Source: a virus
Virus record (IMG/VR): IMGVR_UViG_3300017727_000075
Span: 1-32,146 of that record
Length of the DNA: 32,146 nt
Direction: 5' to 3' (one strand)
Positions 4,215-18,667 of the stretch are shown piece after piece. A program made the position numbers and the translations under genes. How positions within the stretch are numbered: position 1 is the first letter of the stretch; each line of letters opens with the position of its first letter. The notes below the pieces were generated by a model that saw only the letters and a program-made list of their open reading frames with translations, did not search any database and was not told the origin of the DNA.

Positions 4215-6227
4215 TTATTTTGGGTATGCTCCTCTATTAGGCATATTTTCAGGAGCTGTTGCTGCCTGTTTTGAACCTCTAGGATTTCTGTTATATGTTT
4301 TAGGAATAGTTCTAGTCTTTTTATAATTAGAAAGATTTTCAGATGGCTCAGTATTGCTTTCTAATCTGTATAAAACTTTTCTCCATTTATGTCTGCAATA
4401 AATGCCTCCTTTAAATTTAAATAAATCGTAAGCTCTACCTTTATGACCTAACTCTCTGTTTACACCCTCTCTGCTTGCTCTATCAATATCTTCTAAAGTC
4501 CATACAATACCTGCTCTAGCCATGTCCATCATATTTGCACAAAAGTCTCTTTGTGTTTTACTTGGCTTGTTTGATCCTATTGCATAAGTGTATCTTATCT
4601 TATATAATCCATTTTTAGAATCTAAGTCACTATATGAACTACCTTTCTTTTTAGAATCTATTTCATCAGCAAGTCCTAGCAGTCCTTTGATTTTAGAAAG
4701 AGTACTTTTTTTCTCATTTATAAGGTAGTTTGCCCAGTCCTCATTGTCAATATCTTCATCGTTGTCAATTTCATCAACAAAAACATAATTATCACTCATT
4801 TTCTCACCTGCTTCTGCTAGAATACCTAAGATGTTTTTAGTTTCCTCTTCATTTAAATCATCTTTAGTCAAACTCATAGACTGTGGGTAGTCATCATGTG
4901 ATTCACATGGCATATACCAAGTTTTTCCATCTTCGTCTTTATGTGTATGTGAACCTTTACAACCTAACTTCTCGGCTTGCTCCTCAGCTTCTTCAGGAGT
5001 TTCAAAAACAAGTTTGCCATCTATTTTCTTTAAATCTACCTCTACTTTTTCTTCATCTATATCTTCTTGCTTTATTCCTGTTTCTTCTTCAACTTGATCG
5101 TCTGTTAAATCAGTATCTTCATCCATAAAGTCTAATGGTTTAAGAGTTTTGAAGTAAAGATTAAGAGCTATGTCATTAGTTGTTAAAAGGTCATCTAAAG
5201 CATCAATAACAATGTCCTGAGCAGGCTTAATAACGATGTTTAAGAATAAATCGGTAGCTGTTTGTATTTCATCAGCATTATTCCCTAGTCCTCCTCCAGA
5301 TTCTCTAATTCCTAGTAAAAGAGGAGAAGTAATTCTGTGACCTACCATTAATTTCTTAACACACTCCTCAGCTAAATAAGCATAATGTTCTGGAGCATTG
5401 TTTAGTGATATATCTTCAACAGTTGTAGCAGATTCTTGATTAGAATTAAAGGCAACTATTACTTTGTCACCAATAGAACCTGTAAGCTTGCCTAAGATGT
5501 CGTTTTTTATTTGAATTTGTTTCTCTTTGTCAGGTACTCCATTGTTAAAATTAACAACTTTAGTTCCTGAGAAAGAATTTTGTGTCTCATTGATTAAGTA
5601 TGCTGAAATTTCTTCTTCTAAAAGTGCATAAGGCATTGAAGCAGCATAGCTAGGTAGGCTATAATAGTGAAATCCAACAACGTATTTTTTGACAATAAAT
5701 ATTTCATTTAACTCTTTAGATGTCCCAAATACAGGTATTCTTTTAAGTTTATCGTTTCTGTTGTAGTCTTTCCAGTCAGGGTGGTAGTAATAGGCATCTA
5801 TTTCGCCCTTATCGTTGCATTTCTCGGCTCTTAAAGTTTGTCTTGGGAAGTAGGTTAGCTTGCTTATTTTTCTCTCTGTATTATAAGTTACTTGAAACGC
5901 TCCTTCTCCTAAAATTACAAAGTCTTGTACTACTCTAAATAGGTCTTTATTTTTAAGTAATGATCTCATCTGTGCATACTGCTCTGGTTTTTCGCTAGAA
6001 TCAGTAGCATCTATTCCATGACCATAAACAAAATTGGTAACTCCATTTAAAATAGCATGGTTAGTAGTTGAACCAATATATCTGTCTATGACATATTGAT
6101 AGTAATCGTTATTATCTCCAATGGAGACAAAATCTTGGTTTCTTTCTTCATAAACTCTTGGTGCTTCGTAAGAGTTAAGATTTAAAATGTGAATGTCGCT
6201 TTTATGCTTCATAGAATATAAATTCAT
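4215..6227 (-). CDS. Portal protein with long C-terminal extension
   Basis: A 670-aa protein. Residues 15-360 look like a phage portal: HILNLNSYEAP near the start, then YIGSTTNHAILNGVTNFVYG (50-69), VILGEGAFQVTYN (104-116), RITSPLLLGIRESGGGLGNN (298-317) and a helical stretch to about 350. An acidic linker follows (365-400). Residues 407-447 form a small Cys/His module with C423, H427, H429, C441 and H444, possibly metal binding. Residues 545-622 form another domain (IRYTYAIGSNKPSKTQRDFC, then GHKGRAYDLFKFKGG and C611/H613). The portal forms the dodecameric vertex for DNA packaging. M6 at 6212 is an equally good start and would shorten the overlap with the upstream gene from 26 to 11 bases. 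The gene lies far from the large terminase, which is unusual. Confidence 0.8.
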   Translation of the reverse strand: MNLYSMKHKSDIHILNLNSYEAPRVYEERNQDFVSIGDNNDYYQYVIDRYIGSTTNHAILNGVTNFVYGHGIDATDSSEKPEQYAQMRSLLKNKDLFRVVQDFVILGEGAFQVTYNTERKISKLTYFPRQTLRAEKCNDKGEIDAYYYHPDWKDYNRNDKLKRIPVFGTSKELNEIFIVKKYVVGFHYYSLPSYAASMPYALLEEEISAYLINETQNSFSGTKVVNFNNGVPDKEKQIQIKNDILGKLTGSIGDKVIVAFNSNQESATTVEDISLNNAPEHYAYLAEECVKKLMVGHRITSPLLLGIRESGGGLGNNADEIQTATDLFLNIVIKPAQDIVIDALDDLLTTNDIALNLYFKTLKPLDFMDEDTDLTDDQVEEETGIKQEDIDEEKVEVDLKKIDGKLVFETPEEAEEQAEKLGCKGSHTHKDEDGKTWYMPCESHDDYPQSMSLTKDDLNEEETKNILGILAEAGEKMSDNYVFVDEIDNDEDIDNEDWANYLINEKKSTLSKIKGLLGLADEIDSKKKGSSYSDLDSKNGLYKIRYTYAIGSNKPSKTQRDFCANMMDMARAGIVWTLEDIDRASREGVNRELGHKGRAYDLFKFKGGIYCRHKWRKVLYRLESNTEPSENLSNYKKTRTIPKTYNRNPRGSKQAATAPENMPNRGAYPK

Positions 6228-8200: not shown

Positions 8201-8839
8201 TTATTTGTAATTATTTAATTTTTCTAATACTCTATCCATAGTGCTTCTCGCTCTTCCTTTTGCTAAATGCACTCTTTCTTTTTTCTCAACCTTTTCTGGG
8301 TTGTGATTAATTGGTTCAGCAGAAACTTCAACTTCATTTAATTCAACTTTAGCTGCTTCTACTTTTTCTTCTACTTTTTCTTCTTTTGAATACACTTCTT
8401 CTTCTTTAGAATTTCTGTCTTGTTTATCTGATTTTAAATCAGCAATAGCATCTTCTAAGTTTTTAATTCTTTTTTCCATGCCTTTCCAGTCTGCTACATC
8501 AGCTTCCTCATCCATTTCTTCTTCTTCTTTCATTTCTTCTTTTTCTTCTCCTGCTTCTTCCTTTTGTGGAACTTCATCGTCAACATCTTCTCTTACATCT
8601 CCAATGACTCCCTCTTCTTCAACTACTAATAAAGTGCCATCTTCAAATAAGTACTCACCAACTGGCATAGCTACTTTTTCGTCATCTGTCAAAATAAATA
8701 CAGCTTTACCTTTTTCAAAAGATTCAGCTTCTATTCTAGTTCCGTTTTCACGTTTTCTTTCCTCTAACTCTACTTTAACTTCTGCTAGTTCCATTCCTAG
8801 AACTTGTTTTATTGATTCAACTATTTCTGATGCTTTCAT
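8201..8839 (-). CDS. Capsid scaffolding protein (acidic, coiled coil)
   Basis: The 212-aa protein begins with a short amphipathic segment (MKASEIVESIKQVLG), has a small beta domain up to about residue 80 (FILTDDEKVAMPVGEYLFED), a very acidic Glu-rich tract (85-120), a predicted coiled coil (MEKRIKNLEDAIADLKSDKQ near 121-140), more Glu/Lys repeats and a basic C-terminus (KGRARSTMDRVLEKLNNYK). Acidic coiled coil plus basic tail just before the capsid gene is the usual build of a scaffold, whose C-terminal end binds the capsid protein and which is removed during maturation. One copy of the 27-bp element lies 23 bases upstream of the ATG. Confidence 0.75.
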   Translation of the reverse strand: MKASEIVESIKQVLGMELAEVKVELEERKRENGTRIEAESFEKGKAVFILTDDEKVAMPVGEYLFEDGTLLVVEEEGVIGDVREDVDDEVPQKEEAGEEKEEMKEEEEMDEEADVADWKGMEKRIKNLEDAIADLKSDKQDRNSKEEEVYSKEEKVEEKVEAAKVELNEVEVSAEPINHNPEKVEKKERVHLAKGRARSTMDRVLEKLNNYK

Positions 8840-8862: not shown

Positions 8863-8889
8863 TATATGTACAACAAAATTCAAAAGTGT
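8863..8889 (-). promoter_or_regulatory. 27-bp bipartite element, copy 3 (before scaffold)
   Basis: On the minus strand it reads ACACTTT, nine variable bases, TTGTACATATA. The same two blocks with the same nine-base spacing occur at 9681-9707 and 17459-17485. Here it lies between the stop of the 49-aa gene (8901) and the scaffold ATG (8839). It is a candidate late promoter or operator, possibly used by the phage sigma factor. Confidence 0.6.
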
Positions 8890-9050: not shown

Positions 9051-9678
9051 ATTGTTTGTTTTGATTATCACAACCTTTGCAAATAATATCCTTTATTTTT
9101 GCTATTAATTCTTCAGAAAGCACTTCTTCAGATAATTCTTCCTCTATTTGCTCTTTAGGTCTGTTAGCTTGATCTGAGAAAAATCCTTCTATTGAAAATC
9201 CTTTGACTTTGCCTGTTTTTACATAATCATTCCAAATTTTGTCATTATTGACTTTCATTGAAACCATCCAAGTCCCTTTTGGAACATCTAAACCATATTT
9301 TACTGATTTATCCATTTTAGGGTCATCTACTAACCAAGATTCAACAACTGTTAGGTTTTGTATAGCCATTTGATGCTCTAAAGTTGCTTTTGATTGATTG
9401 CCTCTTATTAAAAACATTTCAGATGCCTTTTTTACAGTATCTGTGGAGAAATAGACATAATAGCCTTCATCTTTCTCATTCTTTCTATAAATGGGCTTGT
9501 TAGGTATTAAAGCAGCACCCATAAGGATTCGTTTTTCCTTATCTACCTCTGCCATTTTGATTTCTTGGTTTTTAAGTGCAATAAAATCTGATTCTATTGC
9601 AGGAGATTCAACAACTGAAATAGCTTCTATTCCTGAATGTTCGTTTTCTTCGTCTAAAAATAATTCTATTATATCCAT
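9028..9678 (-). CDS. Prohead maturation protease, XkdF-type (S78-like)
   Basis: A 216-aa protein. The N-terminus MDIIELFLDEENEHSGIEAI and VVESPAIESDFIAL (22-35) match the start of XkdF-like proteins. The catalytic core has the His motif TLEHQ (residues 99-103) and the Ser motif VKGFSIEGFF (158-167), with ESWLVDDPKM and VPKGTWMVSMKV in between. These are the serine protease features of phage prohead proteases, which cut scaffold and capsid protein during maturation. The C-terminus is acidic and then Cys/Lys-rich (CKGCDNQNKQYDKKEKI). The 27-bp element ends two bases before the ATG. Order protease, scaffold, capsid supports the call. Confidence 0.85.
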   Translation of the reverse strand: MDIIELFLDEENEHSGIEAISVVESPAIESDFIALKNQEIKMAEVDKEKRILMGAALIPNKPIYRKNEKDEGYYVYFSTDTVKKASEMFLIRGNQSKATLEHQMAIQNLTVVESWLVDDPKMDKSVKYGLDVPKGTWMVSMKVNNDKIWNDYVKTGKVKGFSIEGFFSDQANRPKEQIEEELSEEVLSEELIAKIKDIICKGCDNQNKQYDKKEKI

Positions 9679-9680
9679 AA

Positions 9681-9707
9681 TATATGTACAATAATTTTTG
9701 AAAGTGT
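9681..9707 (-). promoter_or_regulatory. 27-bp bipartite element, copy 2 (before protease)
   Basis: ACACTTT, nine bases, TTGTACATATA on the minus strand. It fills the gap between the tape-measure stop codon (9707-9709) and the protease ATG at 9678, with only two bases between element and start codon, exactly as in copy 1. Confidence 0.65.
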
Positions 9708-11656
9708 TACCCTATACTTGCTCCTTCGACAATATTTCTGTCTAAACTCTGTGCAGTAGTTACATCATTAGCCACTACAAAAGCTTTGACTGGTTGCTGT
9801 GTCTGGCTTCCTATTGCTCCCGCTAGTTGATTTTCTGATGAAGCTCCTACTATATTAAATGCAGGAGGAGTTGAAGGCACAGATGCACTTGCACTACCAC
9901 CTATTGACGGAGCAGAAGGAGTCCCTGACGATGCACTGCCTCCTCCTTTTACTTGAGTCAAAATATTTTTGGCTTGACCTACAGCACCTAATACTGCTGC
10001 TATTTGTGTAGCATAAAAAGCAGGAAAAGCAAAGGCTGCTGCAGGCCCAGTTCCTGCTGCTGATTTTTGTGCTATATCTAATCCCTGAACATATCCAACT
10101 CCAGTTTTTATTAAAATTTCAGCTAGTGCTGCTGCTTTTGCTGCTGCAGTACCTTTCTCAAATAAACCTCCTAATGCTCCTATTGCACCACCAATGGCAG
10201 AAACATAATCTAACTCTGATTTTAGTTTGGCTTTTAGAATTAAATCATTATTTTTTTTATCAAGTAATTTTGCTTTTATTATTTGATTGTCCCAATAATT
10301 TATTATATCATTTCTTTGTTCTAAACTAGCTTGTAGCTCATCTAATTCAGCAATAGCTTTTTCTTTTTCTAATTCGGCTTTAGCCTGTTCAGTTATAGCA
10401 TTTTCTTCATCAACCATTGTTTTAAATGCTGTTTGTACATCTCTTATAGCTTGTTGTCTTTTGGTTTCTTTATCAGTAGCAGCTAAAACCATATCGACAA
10501 GCTCCTGCTGTTCTTCTTTTTTCTTTTGTTCTTTTTCTGCTTTCTCCTGATTTGCTGCTGTTGTTATTTGTGTTTGCAGTAATCTTTGACTTCTTAATTT
10601 TTTAGTATCTAAGTTTATTAATTCAGCCTGAAGTTTTGCAAGTTTGTCTTTATCTTCAATATTATTTTTACTTAAAGTCATTTCTTGCTCTTGTGCAGCT
10701 ATTACAAGCTTCTTAGCTTCAATTTCTTTTAAAGTAATATCTTCCTCTATTTTTTGTGCTTTTCTAAGTAGTGCTACTCTTTCTGTAGCATTATATTTAT
10801 CTCTTTTTTCAGCTTCTAATCTAATGTCATTTATTTCTCTATTTGCTTTTGCTCTTTCAACAATAATGTCTCTTTCAATATGATGAGCTTTAGCTCTTTG
10901 GTCAGCAATTTGACCTGCAATTTTCATTTCTTTTTGAGTTTCCTCTCCAAAGTTTTTTATTGCATCAGTAGCATCATTTATGTTTGTTTTAGCATCATTA
11001 AAGGCAACAGCCATTCCTGACAAATCTCCTTTTGCTAATTTTAATAAACCTTTACCTACATTTAGAATACTTGTTCCAAAATCTGAGAGAATGTCTACAA
11101 CATTGTTTATTGCTACCTGACCCTGCTTTATTAGTTTTGTAAATCTTTCCTGCCCTTCTTCAGAAGCTTTAAATGCAGCAGTTACAGCAGCTATAGTAGT
11201 CACAAACAAACCAAGTAAACTAAGTTTTAAAATGCCATCAAGAGTTTTAAAGCTTTTACCTAAATTTAAAACACCACCTTTTAAAGCCATTAATCCACTT
11301 ACAGCACCTCCTGTTTGACTGTCTACAGCTTGCAAAGCTCCTCCAAAATCTAAGGCTTCAGCTTTAGCTTCACTTAAAGCTTTAGTCGCTTCTGTTCTTT
11401 TACCTTTAAGTTCAGTAAGTGCCTTTTTTTCTGAGGCTAATTCTTTTTTAGTTTGTTTTATCTGCTTATTTAAATCTTTTCTTCTATTTAAATCTTTAGC
11501 TGAAGTTTGTTCTAATTGATTTTCATAATTCTTTAAATCTTTAGTAATTCGCTGTAGTGCTTCGTCTTGTAACTCTAACAGTTCATTAACTTCATTAAGA
11601 TTTTTTTCTGCTGCTTTTATATTAGCATCAATAATAATAACCTTTTTAATTGCCAT
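9707..11656 (-). CDS. Tail tape measure protein
   Basis: A 649-aa protein. It has an N-terminal coiled coil (about residues 10-115, rich in Lys/Glu/Leu/Gln), a hydrophobic segment near 143-165 (LKLSLLGLFVTTIAAVTAAF), a second long charged helical region (about 240-480), a second Ala/Gly-rich hydrophobic region (about 485-565) and a flexible Gly/Ser/Pro tail. This is the standard build of a siphovirus tape measure, which sets tail length and helps DNA pass the inner membrane. At about 0.15 nm per residue, it would give a tail of roughly 100 nm. It is preceded by tail-tip genes and followed by head genes, the reverse of the usual head-then-tail order. Confidence 0.85.
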   Translation of the reverse strand: MAIKKVIIIDANIKAAEKNLNEVNELLELQDEALQRITKDLKNYENQLEQTSAKDLNRRKDLNKQIKQTKKELASEKKALTELKGKRTEATKALSEAKAEALDFGGALQAVDSQTGGAVSGLMALKGGVLNLGKSFKTLDGILKLSLLGLFVTTIAAVTAAFKASEEGQERFTKLIKQGQVAINNVVDILSDFGTSILNVGKGLLKLAKGDLSGMAVAFNDAKTNINDATDAIKNFGEETQKEMKIAGQIADQRAKAHHIERDIIVERAKANREINDIRLEAEKRDKYNATERVALLRKAQKIEEDITLKEIEAKKLVIAAQEQEMTLSKNNIEDKDKLAKLQAELINLDTKKLRSQRLLQTQITTAANQEKAEKEQKKKEEQQELVDMVLAATDKETKRQQAIRDVQTAFKTMVDEENAITEQAKAELEKEKAIAELDELQASLEQRNDIINYWDNQIIKAKLLDKKNNDLILKAKLKSELDYVSAIGGAIGALGGLFEKGTAAAKAAALAEILIKTGVGYVQGLDIAQKSAAGTGPAAAFAFPAFYATQIAAVLGAVGQAKNILTQVKGGGSASSGTPSAPSIGGSASASVPSTPPAFNIVGASSENQLAGAIGSQTQQPVKAFVVANDVTTAQSLDRNIVEGASIG

Positions 11657-16433: not shown

Positions 16434-16717
16434 ATCGTTTTTATAAATATTGGTGTGAATGAGTTTATATCACTATTGTTTGCTTCTTTTATGTAATCGT
16501 CTAGCCATTCTAAAGCTGCATCAAATTCAAAAACTTCCTGTGTGACTTTTGCTTTTATTAAACAATCCAGACATTTCCAATAATCGTATATAGCTCTTTT
16601 AGGGTTTGTGGTAGATATGCCAACCATAGCATCTTCAAAGCCTTCAGCTAAAACAATGCTTTCATCATAAGGAATTAGTCCCCTTTCATACAACTCTTCT
16701 ACTAAAAACTCTTTCAT
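16430..16717 (-). CDS. Conserved small phage protein (95 aa)
   Basis: The 95-aa acidic protein has the core GFEDAMVGISTTNPKRAIYD (residues 26-45), then YWKCLDCLIKAK, FDAALEWLDDYIKEA and TPIFI. I know this pattern (an acidic start, then G-EDA-VG, AVYDY, EA-EF or EWLD, TP-F) from small proteins of many phages. Their function is unknown to me. Here it is enclosed by tail-assembly genes. The start codon shares a base with the upstream stop (TAATG). Confidence 0.6.
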   Translation of the reverse strand: MKEFLVEELYERGLIPYDESIVLAEGFEDAMVGISTTNPKRAIYDYWKCLDCLIKAKVTQEVFEFDAALEWLDDYIKEANNSDINSFTPIFIKTI

Positions 16718-17456
16718 TATTTAATTTTACTTCTTATCATTCTTTCTTCTAGTTCATTTTTATCTTTTTCAAATGTTAGAAACATTAAACATTGATGTAA
16801 GGGTAGTTTGGTAACTTGGTCAATGTTGGCAACATTTCCTGAAGCAAGTCGGTATATACTTGAATACCAATTCCATCGTCTTGCAAAATTTGCTTTTGCT
16901 GTAAGGTCAGATTCTGTAGTTCCTCCCTCAAATAGATCGGTATATGATTTACTAACTCGCTGCTTAAATTCCAAAAAAAAATCAATGCTCCAAACACTAA
17001 ATCTAAAGGCATTTTCTGCATATCGTATTTATCATAAGTCTCATACTTTTCAATTAGATATTTATTTTTTTTCCTGTATGTTACTGGTCTAAATAAAACA
17101 CCCATAGCTTTGTGCATAGTTTCCCAGTCATTTAAAGTAGAATCAATGTCAACATATTCTCCAAAAGTCATTTCATCTAAATTTGGTATAAATCCAAATT
17201 CTAACTCTCCTCTTTGAAAAGAAGAATTAAACTTAGGTTTGATTTTAAAGATTTCGTTTAGGTGAGTTGTAATTTCTTTTATTGAAGAATATCTTGTAGC
17301 AAAGACAGTACTCATTTCTATATTACAGAATATCGAAACCATTTTTTGATTCACAAACAAACTATCTTCATTGTCTTTAGAAATCTTTAGAAACTTTTGA
17401 TATTGCTCTAATGTTATTTCTGATAGTGTTTCAGGTACTAGGATTTTAACTTTCAT
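16717..17456 (-). CDS. Tail assembly chaperone, -1 frameshift fusion product (246 aa)
   Basis: The 223-aa frame contains the heptamer T TTT TTT in the right phase at 16980-16974. A -1 shift there joins its first 161 residues to an 85-codon frame ending at 16717, giving about 246 aa. The -1 frame reads LEFKQRVSKSYTDLFEGG, later FARRWNWYSSIYRLASGN and TKLPLHQCLMFLTFEKDKNE, a pattern I know as genuine coding sequence in flavobacterial phages. It has no ATG in a sensible place, only the TTG at the slip site. Lambda gpG/gpGT and many other phages make a tail chaperone pair this way. Unlike lambda, the two frames overlap for 190 bases after the slip site. Confidence 0.7.
16785..17456 (-). CDS. Tail assembly chaperone, unshifted product (gpG-like, 223 aa)
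   Basis: A 223-aa protein. The N-terminus has VPETLSEITLEQYQKFLKI (7-25). The middle has LDEMTFGEYVDIDSTLNDWE (93-112), MGVLFRPVTY (118-127) and KMPLDLVFGALIFFWNLSSE (148-167), and the end is DLLQEMLPTLTKLPNYPYIN. I recognise the pattern as a conserved Bacteroidota phage protein. The slippery run inside codons 159-161 and the overlapping -1 frame suggest that it is the short member of a tail-chaperone pair. Its stop comes 190 bases beyond the slip site, so both C-termini are encoded by the same DNA. The 27-bp element ends two bases before its ATG, so it may open a late transcription unit. Confidence 0.65.
   Translation of the reverse strand: MKVKILVPETLSEITLEQYQKFLKISKDNEDSLFVNQKMVSIFCNIEMSTVFATRYSSIKEITTHLNEIFKIKPKFNSSFQRGELEFGFIPNLDEMTFGEYVDIDSTLNDWETMHKAMGVLFRPVTYRKKNKYLIEKYETYDKYDMQKMPLDLVFGALIFFWNLSSELVNHIPIYLREELQNLTLQQKQILQDDGIGIQVYTDLLQEMLPTLTKLPNYPYINV
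16974..16980 (-). promoter_or_regulatory. Slippery heptamer T TTT TTT (programmed -1 frameshift site)
   Basis: A run of nine T on the minus strand (16981-16973) lies at codons ATT TTT TTT TGG. The heptamer is in the canonical X XXY YYZ phase, and after a -1 slip the next codon is TTG, which opens the 85-codon frame. I did not identify a stimulatory structure downstream. Confidence 0.7.
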
Positions 17457-17458
17457 AC

Positions 17459-17485
17459 TATATGTACAATAAAATCACAAAGTGT
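17459..17485 (-). promoter_or_regulatory. 27-bp bipartite element, copy 1 (before tail chaperone)
   Basis: ACACTTT, nine bases, TTGTACATATA on the minus strand, in the 41-base gap between the large terminase stop (17498) and the chaperone ATG (17456). The spacing to the ATG is two bases, identical to copy 2. Confidence 0.65.
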
Positions 17486-17497
17486 ACTCCACCCTAT

Positions 17498-18667
17498 TTA
17501 ATAAAAGTGATATTCTCCTCTGTTTGGATTTTCTAGTTGCATCATAAGTGCATAGCGAGCTGCATCAATGCAGTCTGGATGTGAGCCTGTAGGTTTTTGT
17601 AGATCGTTACCTTCTTTATCTTTAGCCCATATATAACCCTGAAGCTCTTTGATTAGATTCTTGCTTCTTCTAGTTACATAAATTTCATTTTGATTCATTA
17701 GGTTAATTCCATAGACTATTGAATCTCTACCTTTTGTTACAGGATAAACTGCATGACCATAGTTTTTTAATTCAGCTATAGATTTAGGCTCTGCTGAATC
17801 AGCATAAATGTTTTCTCTTATATGTTGGTTTGTAAAAAATAAGCTAATGTCTCTATTGTGCATACCTTTTCTATAAAGCATTTCATCAAATAGGTAAGCA
17901 CTATTCCATTTGTATAATCTTATATAAGTTGAAGGGTCAACAGAATAGCCAAAGTCCATTCCTCCACAAAGCAGTCTTGCATCTTCTGGTATTTTATCAA
18001 TCTCTTTCCAGTCTGGAATACAAACTCCCTCTAAGCTTCCTATCTCACCTAAGCCATATACTTTCCACCAATTAGCCCAGTAAGTAGAAGTCTTAGCTTT
18101 GTCTCTTGCTTTCTCTATTTCTTTAACTATTGATTCTGGTAGACTGTCATTGTCTTTGTAGGTTAGTGTAACAAAGTCAGTATCACTCTGTCCTATTAGT
18201 TCTTTATCTACCCAAAATAGATTTGCAGGATTATAGTCTAGCCAGATGTTTCCACTTGTTCTGACTGCTAACTGTTGGTAAGCATCAAATGGCACATTGT
18301 TACATTCGTTTATGTACAAGTCTGTTCTTCTTGCTCCTCTAAGTTTGTCTGGTTGATCTGTGGAGAAAAACTCTATATAAGAGCCATTACTAAATTCGTA
18401 TTTTAAAGTACTTCTATTAAACTTCTTTTCATAGTACCTGTTTAGGCTCTTTAATATACTTAGAAAGTCTTTTAAAGCTCCTCTACGCAAGTGAGGAATA
18501 GATTCGGATACTACACTTATTTCTTTGCCTTTGTTTTTAATAGCATAGTCAATCAGTATTATCAATATTGCTATTGTTTTTCCTGCTGAACTTCCTCCTC
18601 TAATAATCTTAGTTCTACTGTTTAGGTTTAGTAGTTTATTTAAGGCTAAGGTTTTTTTGACTTGCAT
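17498..18667 (-). CDS. terL: Terminase large subunit (PBSX/Terminase_3-like)
   Basis: A 389-aa protein. The ATPase half has the Walker A GGSSAGKT (24-31), a Walker B-like strand DLYINECNN with E121, and the coupling motif LDYNPAN (143-149). The nuclease half has the RNase H-like acidic residues D238 (GMDFGYSVDP), D290 (YADSAEP) and D368 (HPDCIDAARYA). It cuts concatemeric DNA and pumps it through the portal. The length is slightly short for the family but all motifs are present. It lies one base after the small subunit. PBSX-type terminases mostly belong to headful-packaging phages, which agrees with a circularly permuted assembly. Confidence 0.93.
   Translation of the reverse strand: MQVKKTLALNKLLNLNSRTKIIRGGSSAGKTIAILIILIDYAIKNKGKEISVVSESIPHLRRGALKDFLSILKSLNRYYEKKFNRSTLKYEFSNGSYIEFFSTDQPDKLRGARRTDLYINECNNVPFDAYQQLAVRTSGNIWLDYNPANLFWVDKELIGQSDTDFVTLTYKDNDSLPESIVKEIEKARDKAKTSTYWANWWKVYGLGEIGSLEGVCIPDWKEIDKIPEDARLLCGGMDFGYSVDPSTYIRLYKWNSAYLFDEMLYRKGMHNRDISLFFTNQHIRENIYADSAEPKSIAELKNYGHAVYPVTKGRDSIVYGINLMNQNEIYVTRRSKNLIKELQGYIWAKDKEGNDLQKPTGSHPDCIDAARYALMMQLENPNRGEYHFY

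Follow-up and report, generated by a model that had tools for sequence, protein, structure and literature searches.

The window, by which we mean the whole stretch of DNA that was analysed, comprises 32,146 nucleotides and corresponds to positions 1 to 32,146 of the IMG/VR virus record IMGVR_UViG_3300017727_000075. On its minus strand, directly after the gene for the terminase large subunit, lies an open reading frame here called G, which is overlapped from a run of nine T's onwards by a second open frame, here called T, displaced by -1. The features that matter for the present analysis are the following.

17498 to 18667, minus strand: gene for the terminase large subunit, directly upstream of G (Pfam Terminase_3C and Terminase_3; PHROG terminase large subunit).
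17441 to 17505, minus strand: leader of G with TTGTACATATA, a possible promoter element by sequence similarity.
16785 to 17456, minus strand: G, the 0-frame protein of 223 aa, probably a tail assembly chaperone and the unshifted product (open reading frame; relatives).
16973 to 16981, minus strand: T9 run containing the slippery heptamer T TTT TTT (16980-16974), with T at all nine positions in 50 of 50 diverse relatives.
16785 to 16974, minus strand: dual-coding overlap of 190 nt (codon-position variability, substitution classes, avoidance of hidden stops).
16720 to 16974, minus strand: T, the extension read in the -1 frame, 85 codons that lack an ATG of their own (open reading frame; relatives).
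16715 to 16719, minus strand: TAATG, in which the stop of T (16719-16717) overlaps the ATG of the next gene (16717-16715).
9707 to 11656, minus strand: gene for the tape measure protein, on which the chaperone is likely to act (tail length tape measure family phrog_167, E 5e-4; phrog_32985, E 8e-37).

The preliminary description of this DNA had placed T TTT TTT at 16980-16974 (minus strand), in phase with the G frame (17456-16785) for a -1 slip into the 85-codon frame, and had counted 190 bases (16974-16785) shared by the two frames. Both statements were found to be correct, the run itself being T9, not T7, and the G codons across it reading ATT TTT TTT TGG (minus strand). The -1 frame becomes open no more than about 54 nt before the slip, has neither ATG nor GTG until 'CLMF', whose Met lies some 64 codons along, and terminates at the TAA at 16719-16717 (minus strand); in nearly all relatives the stop of T joins the next start as a TAATG-like sequence or as ATGA. 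Among the genes of the window, two in-phase T7 runs were seen as against 5.0 ± 1.7 expected from synonymous shuffling, and one run of at least eight T's was seen as against 0.9 expected from codon shuffling. The T9 is the sole T-run of at least eight on the coding strand of the minus-strand genes, as against many A-runs there, which matches the shuffling expectation. A genome-wide avoidance of T-runs, considered as support for the slipperiness of the site, was not significant and was dropped. Since a single in-phase T7 is unsurprising in such AT-rich DNA, it is conservation that counts, and it is the conservation of the T7, not its lone occurrence, that exceeds chance.

We looked for loss of the heptamer or of the -1 frame in relatives, as the preliminary description had proposed. 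In the first two scans an in-phase T7 was present in every locus readable through the site (113 loci, 83 distinct). An alignment-based scan of IMG/VR found the in-phase T7 inside a T9 or T10, with both frames open, in 144 of 146 distinct loci, the two exceptions being L116, whose contig is truncated, and L100, an 8-T variant that is an indel. A scan with the distant G protein of the Nonlabens phage gave T9 or T10 in 46 of 46 distinct loci and T in the -1 frame in 45 of them, the remaining locus being truncated. T9 or T10 with both frames open was likewise found in all 78 loci chosen by an upstream motif alone, that is, loci not selected on the slip site itself. The arrangement is kept in more than 200 related phages on distinct contigs, and the isolate Nonlabens phage P12024L also has the in-phase T9 and both open frames. 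Across 50 diverse representatives the nine T positions are invariant and the adjacent wobble positions variable, and Phe elsewhere in G is encoded by TTC in 19% of cases. The codon preceding the run is always of V/I/L/F type and the codon following it specifies W, Y, C, F or L. The locus and its homologues thus carry a conserved, in-phase slippery heptamer of the X XXY YYZ form. In L100 the run is a T8 (4996-5003) in place of T9 and the G frame is broken, owing either to a homopolymer error or to a defective phage.

No stimulatory RNA was detected downstream of the slip in 50 sequences (mean folding z about 0, consensus fold empty), no downstream stem-loop was found at the slip site, and Rfam and tRNA scans were empty. 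A downstream stimulatory structure is optional for -1 frameshift genes and is rare in phage tail genes. T-run sites of the P2 type do without a hairpin, which is not required for frameshifting (PMC3091744), and in E. coli the ribosome shifts less readily on U_UUU_UUU than on A_AAA_AAG (PMC5009743).

G has more than 200 relatives of 25-100% identity and matches phrog_32199, a family of unknown function (E 9e-12). In its AlphaFold2 model (pLDDT 81) a helix of residues 151-181 passes through the slip with good confidence, and pLDDT falls below 60 from about residue 185, that is, over the last ~40 residues. T carries the conserved motif FxxKWGWYxSIxxL and its model is helical (pLDDT 76). The joined product GT is predicted to have about 246 aa.

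That both frames beyond the slip are true protein sequence had been suggested from their appearance, along with a codon-by-codon substitution analysis of both frames across relatives, and the substitution classes and the avoidance of stops establish that the dual coding is real. Within the closest subfamily, sites at G codon positions 1/2/3 were variable in a fraction of 0.46/0.31/0.85 before the overlap, 0.29/0.60/0.61 inside it and 0.33/0.81/0.48 after the end of G. The wobble signal thus moves from position 3 of G (0.85) through even values in the overlap (0.60/0.61) to the wobble position of T (0.81), which is the pattern that would be expected of two active frames. Substitution classes were computed on 45-46 independent pairs. 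Changes that alter T and are silent in G occurred at 0.17-0.42 of the G-only synonymous rate throughout the overlap. Changes that alter G and are silent in T, taken relative to T-only synonymous changes, stood at 0.46, 0.28 and 0.58 in codons 1-11, 12-22 and 23-33 after the slip, and at 0.88, 0.73 and 1.10 in codons 34-44, 45-52 and 53-62. T is constrained throughout, and by these ratios residue constraint on G is clear over about codons 1-33, weak over 34-52 and absent over 53-62.

Avoidance of stop codons reaches further along G. When T was resampled synonymously, about 39 of 49 diverse sequences were expected to contain G-frame stops in codons 40-52; one was observed. Where Leu of T codons 38-52 stands before A or G, TTA or CTA was used in 0 of 42 cases, as against 261 of 400 in a single-coding control, and a general avoidance of this type of codon was not seen in the control regions. 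Beyond codon 52, G-frame stops occur at about the expected rate. The way the overlap is defined accounts for part of the absence of hidden stops, and the case for stop avoidance is therefore based on the control regions and the contrast in codon choice. Judged in this way, stop codons in the G frame are avoided to about codon 52, beyond the reach of residue constraint, and the comparisons among relatives show purifying selection acting on both frames in the overlap.

The length of the G tail past the slip differs among relatives, lying between about 18 and 90 codons, with about 18-25 in the Nonlabens group. The selected part of it would accordingly comprise the end of the helix (about 20-33 codons) and a loose tail of variable length. 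The earlier claim that the two isoforms have different C-terminal domains was therefore overstated and is supported for roughly the first half of the G tail only: residue constraint holds over codons ~1-33, but it is absent over codons 53-62, where the model is of low confidence (pLDDT <60) and the length is variable. It may be, and we put this forward tentatively as the less favoured view, that the 0-frame tail is a functional part of G absent from the shifted product, so that the two isoforms have alternative C-terminal parts and form a true overprinted pair. If so, there would be an overprinted pair inside a tail chaperone and not a G with a short leftover tail. In one group of relatives (L230-L265, e.g. 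L237 3979-4758) G extends about 84 codons past the slip and contains almost all of the T frame.

The reading that we consider probable is that a programmed -1 frameshift at the run of nine U's yields G and GT, a tail assembly chaperone pair of the gpG/gpGT type. Most ribosomes would presumably read G (223 aa), and a minority would slip back by one base on U UUU UUU and make GT of about 246 aa, in which the last 62 residues of G are exchanged for the 85-codon helical T domain. We infer that G and GT would coat the tape measure protein and recruit the tail tube protein, as do lambda gpG/gpGT or P2 E/E+E'.

Judged from the sequence, it is likelier that the ribosome slips than that RNA polymerase does. 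In transcriptional slippage the polymerase would stutter on the T9, adding an extra U to some mRNAs, from which GT would be made by standard translation. Such stuttering would fit a run that is never shorter than nine in intact loci, when T7 suffices for ribosomal slippage, and a site without stimulatory RNA structure; the +1 frame, moreover, closes 1-2 codons past the run in 138 of 140 sequences, so that a one-base deletion would merely truncate G. The two extra T's are, however, also explained by the protein sequence, given the V/I/L/F-type residue before the run and W/Y/C/F/L after it, and the first codon retains a T at its third base, as the ribosomal heptamer requires. We prefer the ribosome and regard transcriptional slippage as unlikely, because the phase of the heptamer is kept, this third base included, and ribosomal slippage is the mechanism in known phage tail pairs (PMC5009743). 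Either kind of slippage would give the same GT protein.

The pair is identified as a probable tail chaperone from its architecture and context. Tail assembly chaperones are characteristically encoded in tail modules by frameshift genes with two products (PMC5009743), and here a frameshift predicted from the sequence would give two products, G and G-T, within a structural gene block. The block runs from the terminase small subunit (assigned by position) and large subunit through G/GT, three small genes and two large genes to the tape measure gene, and continues with a protease, a probable scaffold, the capsid and the portal; one of the three small genes after G/GT has a weak neck-type match. 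G/GT does not lie just upstream of the tape measure gene: it adjoins the terminase gene, and five genes separate it from the tape measure gene (9707-11656). Known chaperone pairs lie close to the tape measure gene, which is usual and not strictly defining, and the position of G/GT beside the terminase is atypical. The C-terminal half of the portal protein (4215-6227) matches DUF3721 (E 2e-9). The leader containing TTGTACATATA recurs at 9676-9694 and 8863-8879 (minus strand), before the protease gene, whose start is at 9678, and the gene after it, which starts at 8839, and may possibly represent a shared late promoter.

Searches of Pfam, PHROG, PDB and Foldseek gave no match that names G/GT a tail chaperone, Pfam giving no match at all for the pair. 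PDB fold and sequence searches with G and a PDB sequence search with T gave nothing usable, and two BFVD matches labelled tail assembly were weak (E 0.08 and 0.29). A tail chaperone pair, as first proposed, is thus probable by architecture and context, but no family or fold search named one. The frameshift could be real and the pair another two-form structural or assembly protein, such as a head or neck component, and the place directly after the terminase, away from the tape measure, and the want of a family that names G/GT would both agree with this. We nevertheless think it improbable, as this is a small pair with a helical extension in a tail-gene block, no other pair of the kind was noticed upstream of the tape measure, and the Nonlabens phage has the same gene order. 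A tail assembly chaperone pair of the gpG/gpGT type remains the best reading.

T might also be a separate gene with an internal start, for example the TTG at 16974, and not a frameshift extension. A TTG does stand at the slip point of the -1 frame, and the deposited gp41 of Nonlabens phage P12024L begins at an ATG inside the T frame; but in that phage the T frame continues, open and with homology, as far back as the T9 run. The second frame is open from the slip and conserved, and the preliminary claim that it has no ATG of its own was borne out by relatives, with a T-frame ATG in the overlap in 0 of 140 sequences and a GTG in one. Internal initiation would not need the invariant phase of the T-run. 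BFVD includes proteins of 226-267 aa that seem to join both domains in one chain, their predicted models matching G as well as T; this evidence, which for each protein consists of two structural matches, in some cases weak ones, is consistent with a natural single-chain GT. An internal start is therefore very improbable. That one T was lost from the homopolymer by a sequencing or assembly error, the true gene being a single G-T frame, is refuted as the origin of the two frames by the relatives, for although homopolymers are error-prone and the 8-T variant in L100 does break the frame, the same T9/T10 with two open frames recurs in more than 200 distinct contigs and an isolate genome, and the openness of the G frame is under selection.

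The arrangement resembles lambda gpG/gpGT in having a small protein and a -1 extension from one start in a structural gene block, and in an extension that ends overlapping the next gene. The lambda site is G GGA AAG, followed by 18 nt of G, whereas here T9 is followed by 189 nt, so that the overlap is indeed longer than in lambda, as had been noted; also, the lambda pair lies between the tail tube and tape measure genes and the present one beside the terminase. P2 E/E+E' is alike in its T-run site (T TTT TTG), its -1 shift, an extension without a start signal and the absence of a downstream hairpin (PMC3091744, PMC3931495), but has only 21 nt of E past the heptamer and is followed directly by the tape measure gene. 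G/GT showed no relation to lambda gpG/gpGT in sequence or fold, nor to P2 E/E+E' in sequence. HK97 gp13/gp14 and Bxb1 gp20/gp21 are chaperone pairs that likewise have the extension in the -1 frame, and their frames allow an overlap of at most 52 nt and 151 nt, respectively. Long overlaps may thus not be without precedent, as in Bxb1; the 189-nt stretch is long, but it differs from known pairs in degree.

A true homologue is gp40-gp41 of Nonlabens phages P12024S/L, which has the same T9, the same T frame and the same place after the terminase (in P12024L, E 3e-14 for the T frame and 2e-32 for G), and for which likewise no frameshift is annotated; it differs in a G tail of only about 25 codons past the slip and in a gp41 annotated from an ATG of its own. 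In P12024L (NC_018272; L117 9001-9695) gp41 was deposited as an independent hypothetical protein, but it corresponds to the last part of a T frame that is open as far back as the T9. Gp10 of Flavobacterium phage 6H (L196 10050-10927) is a weak relative of G (profile E 0.007), after which an unannotated T-like frame ends overlapping the next start, the frames lacking a clean heptamer join. It was rejected as a bridge to better-known phages, the match being weak and the frame structure not clean. In the literature searched, most subscription papers lying outside the search, we found no description of a tail frameshift for this phage group.

The hosts of this phage group are aquatic Flavobacteria-type bacteria. 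In one scan of bacterial genomes the sole match was in a Flavobacteriaceae MAG, and prophages of this kind therefore look rare. Within this large group the unannotated frameshift gene is apparently universal, and it would supply the tail chaperone, previously unnamed in the databases searched; the T frame also corrects the annotation of the isolate P12024L. The more than 200 homologues offer a clean natural case of dual coding, in which one frame is normally constrained and the other passes from strict constraint to frame-only constraint along 60 codons, with natural G tails of about 18-90 codons available for comparison. What is new here would be a long-overlap, unannotated form of the known frameshift device by which phages build their tails.
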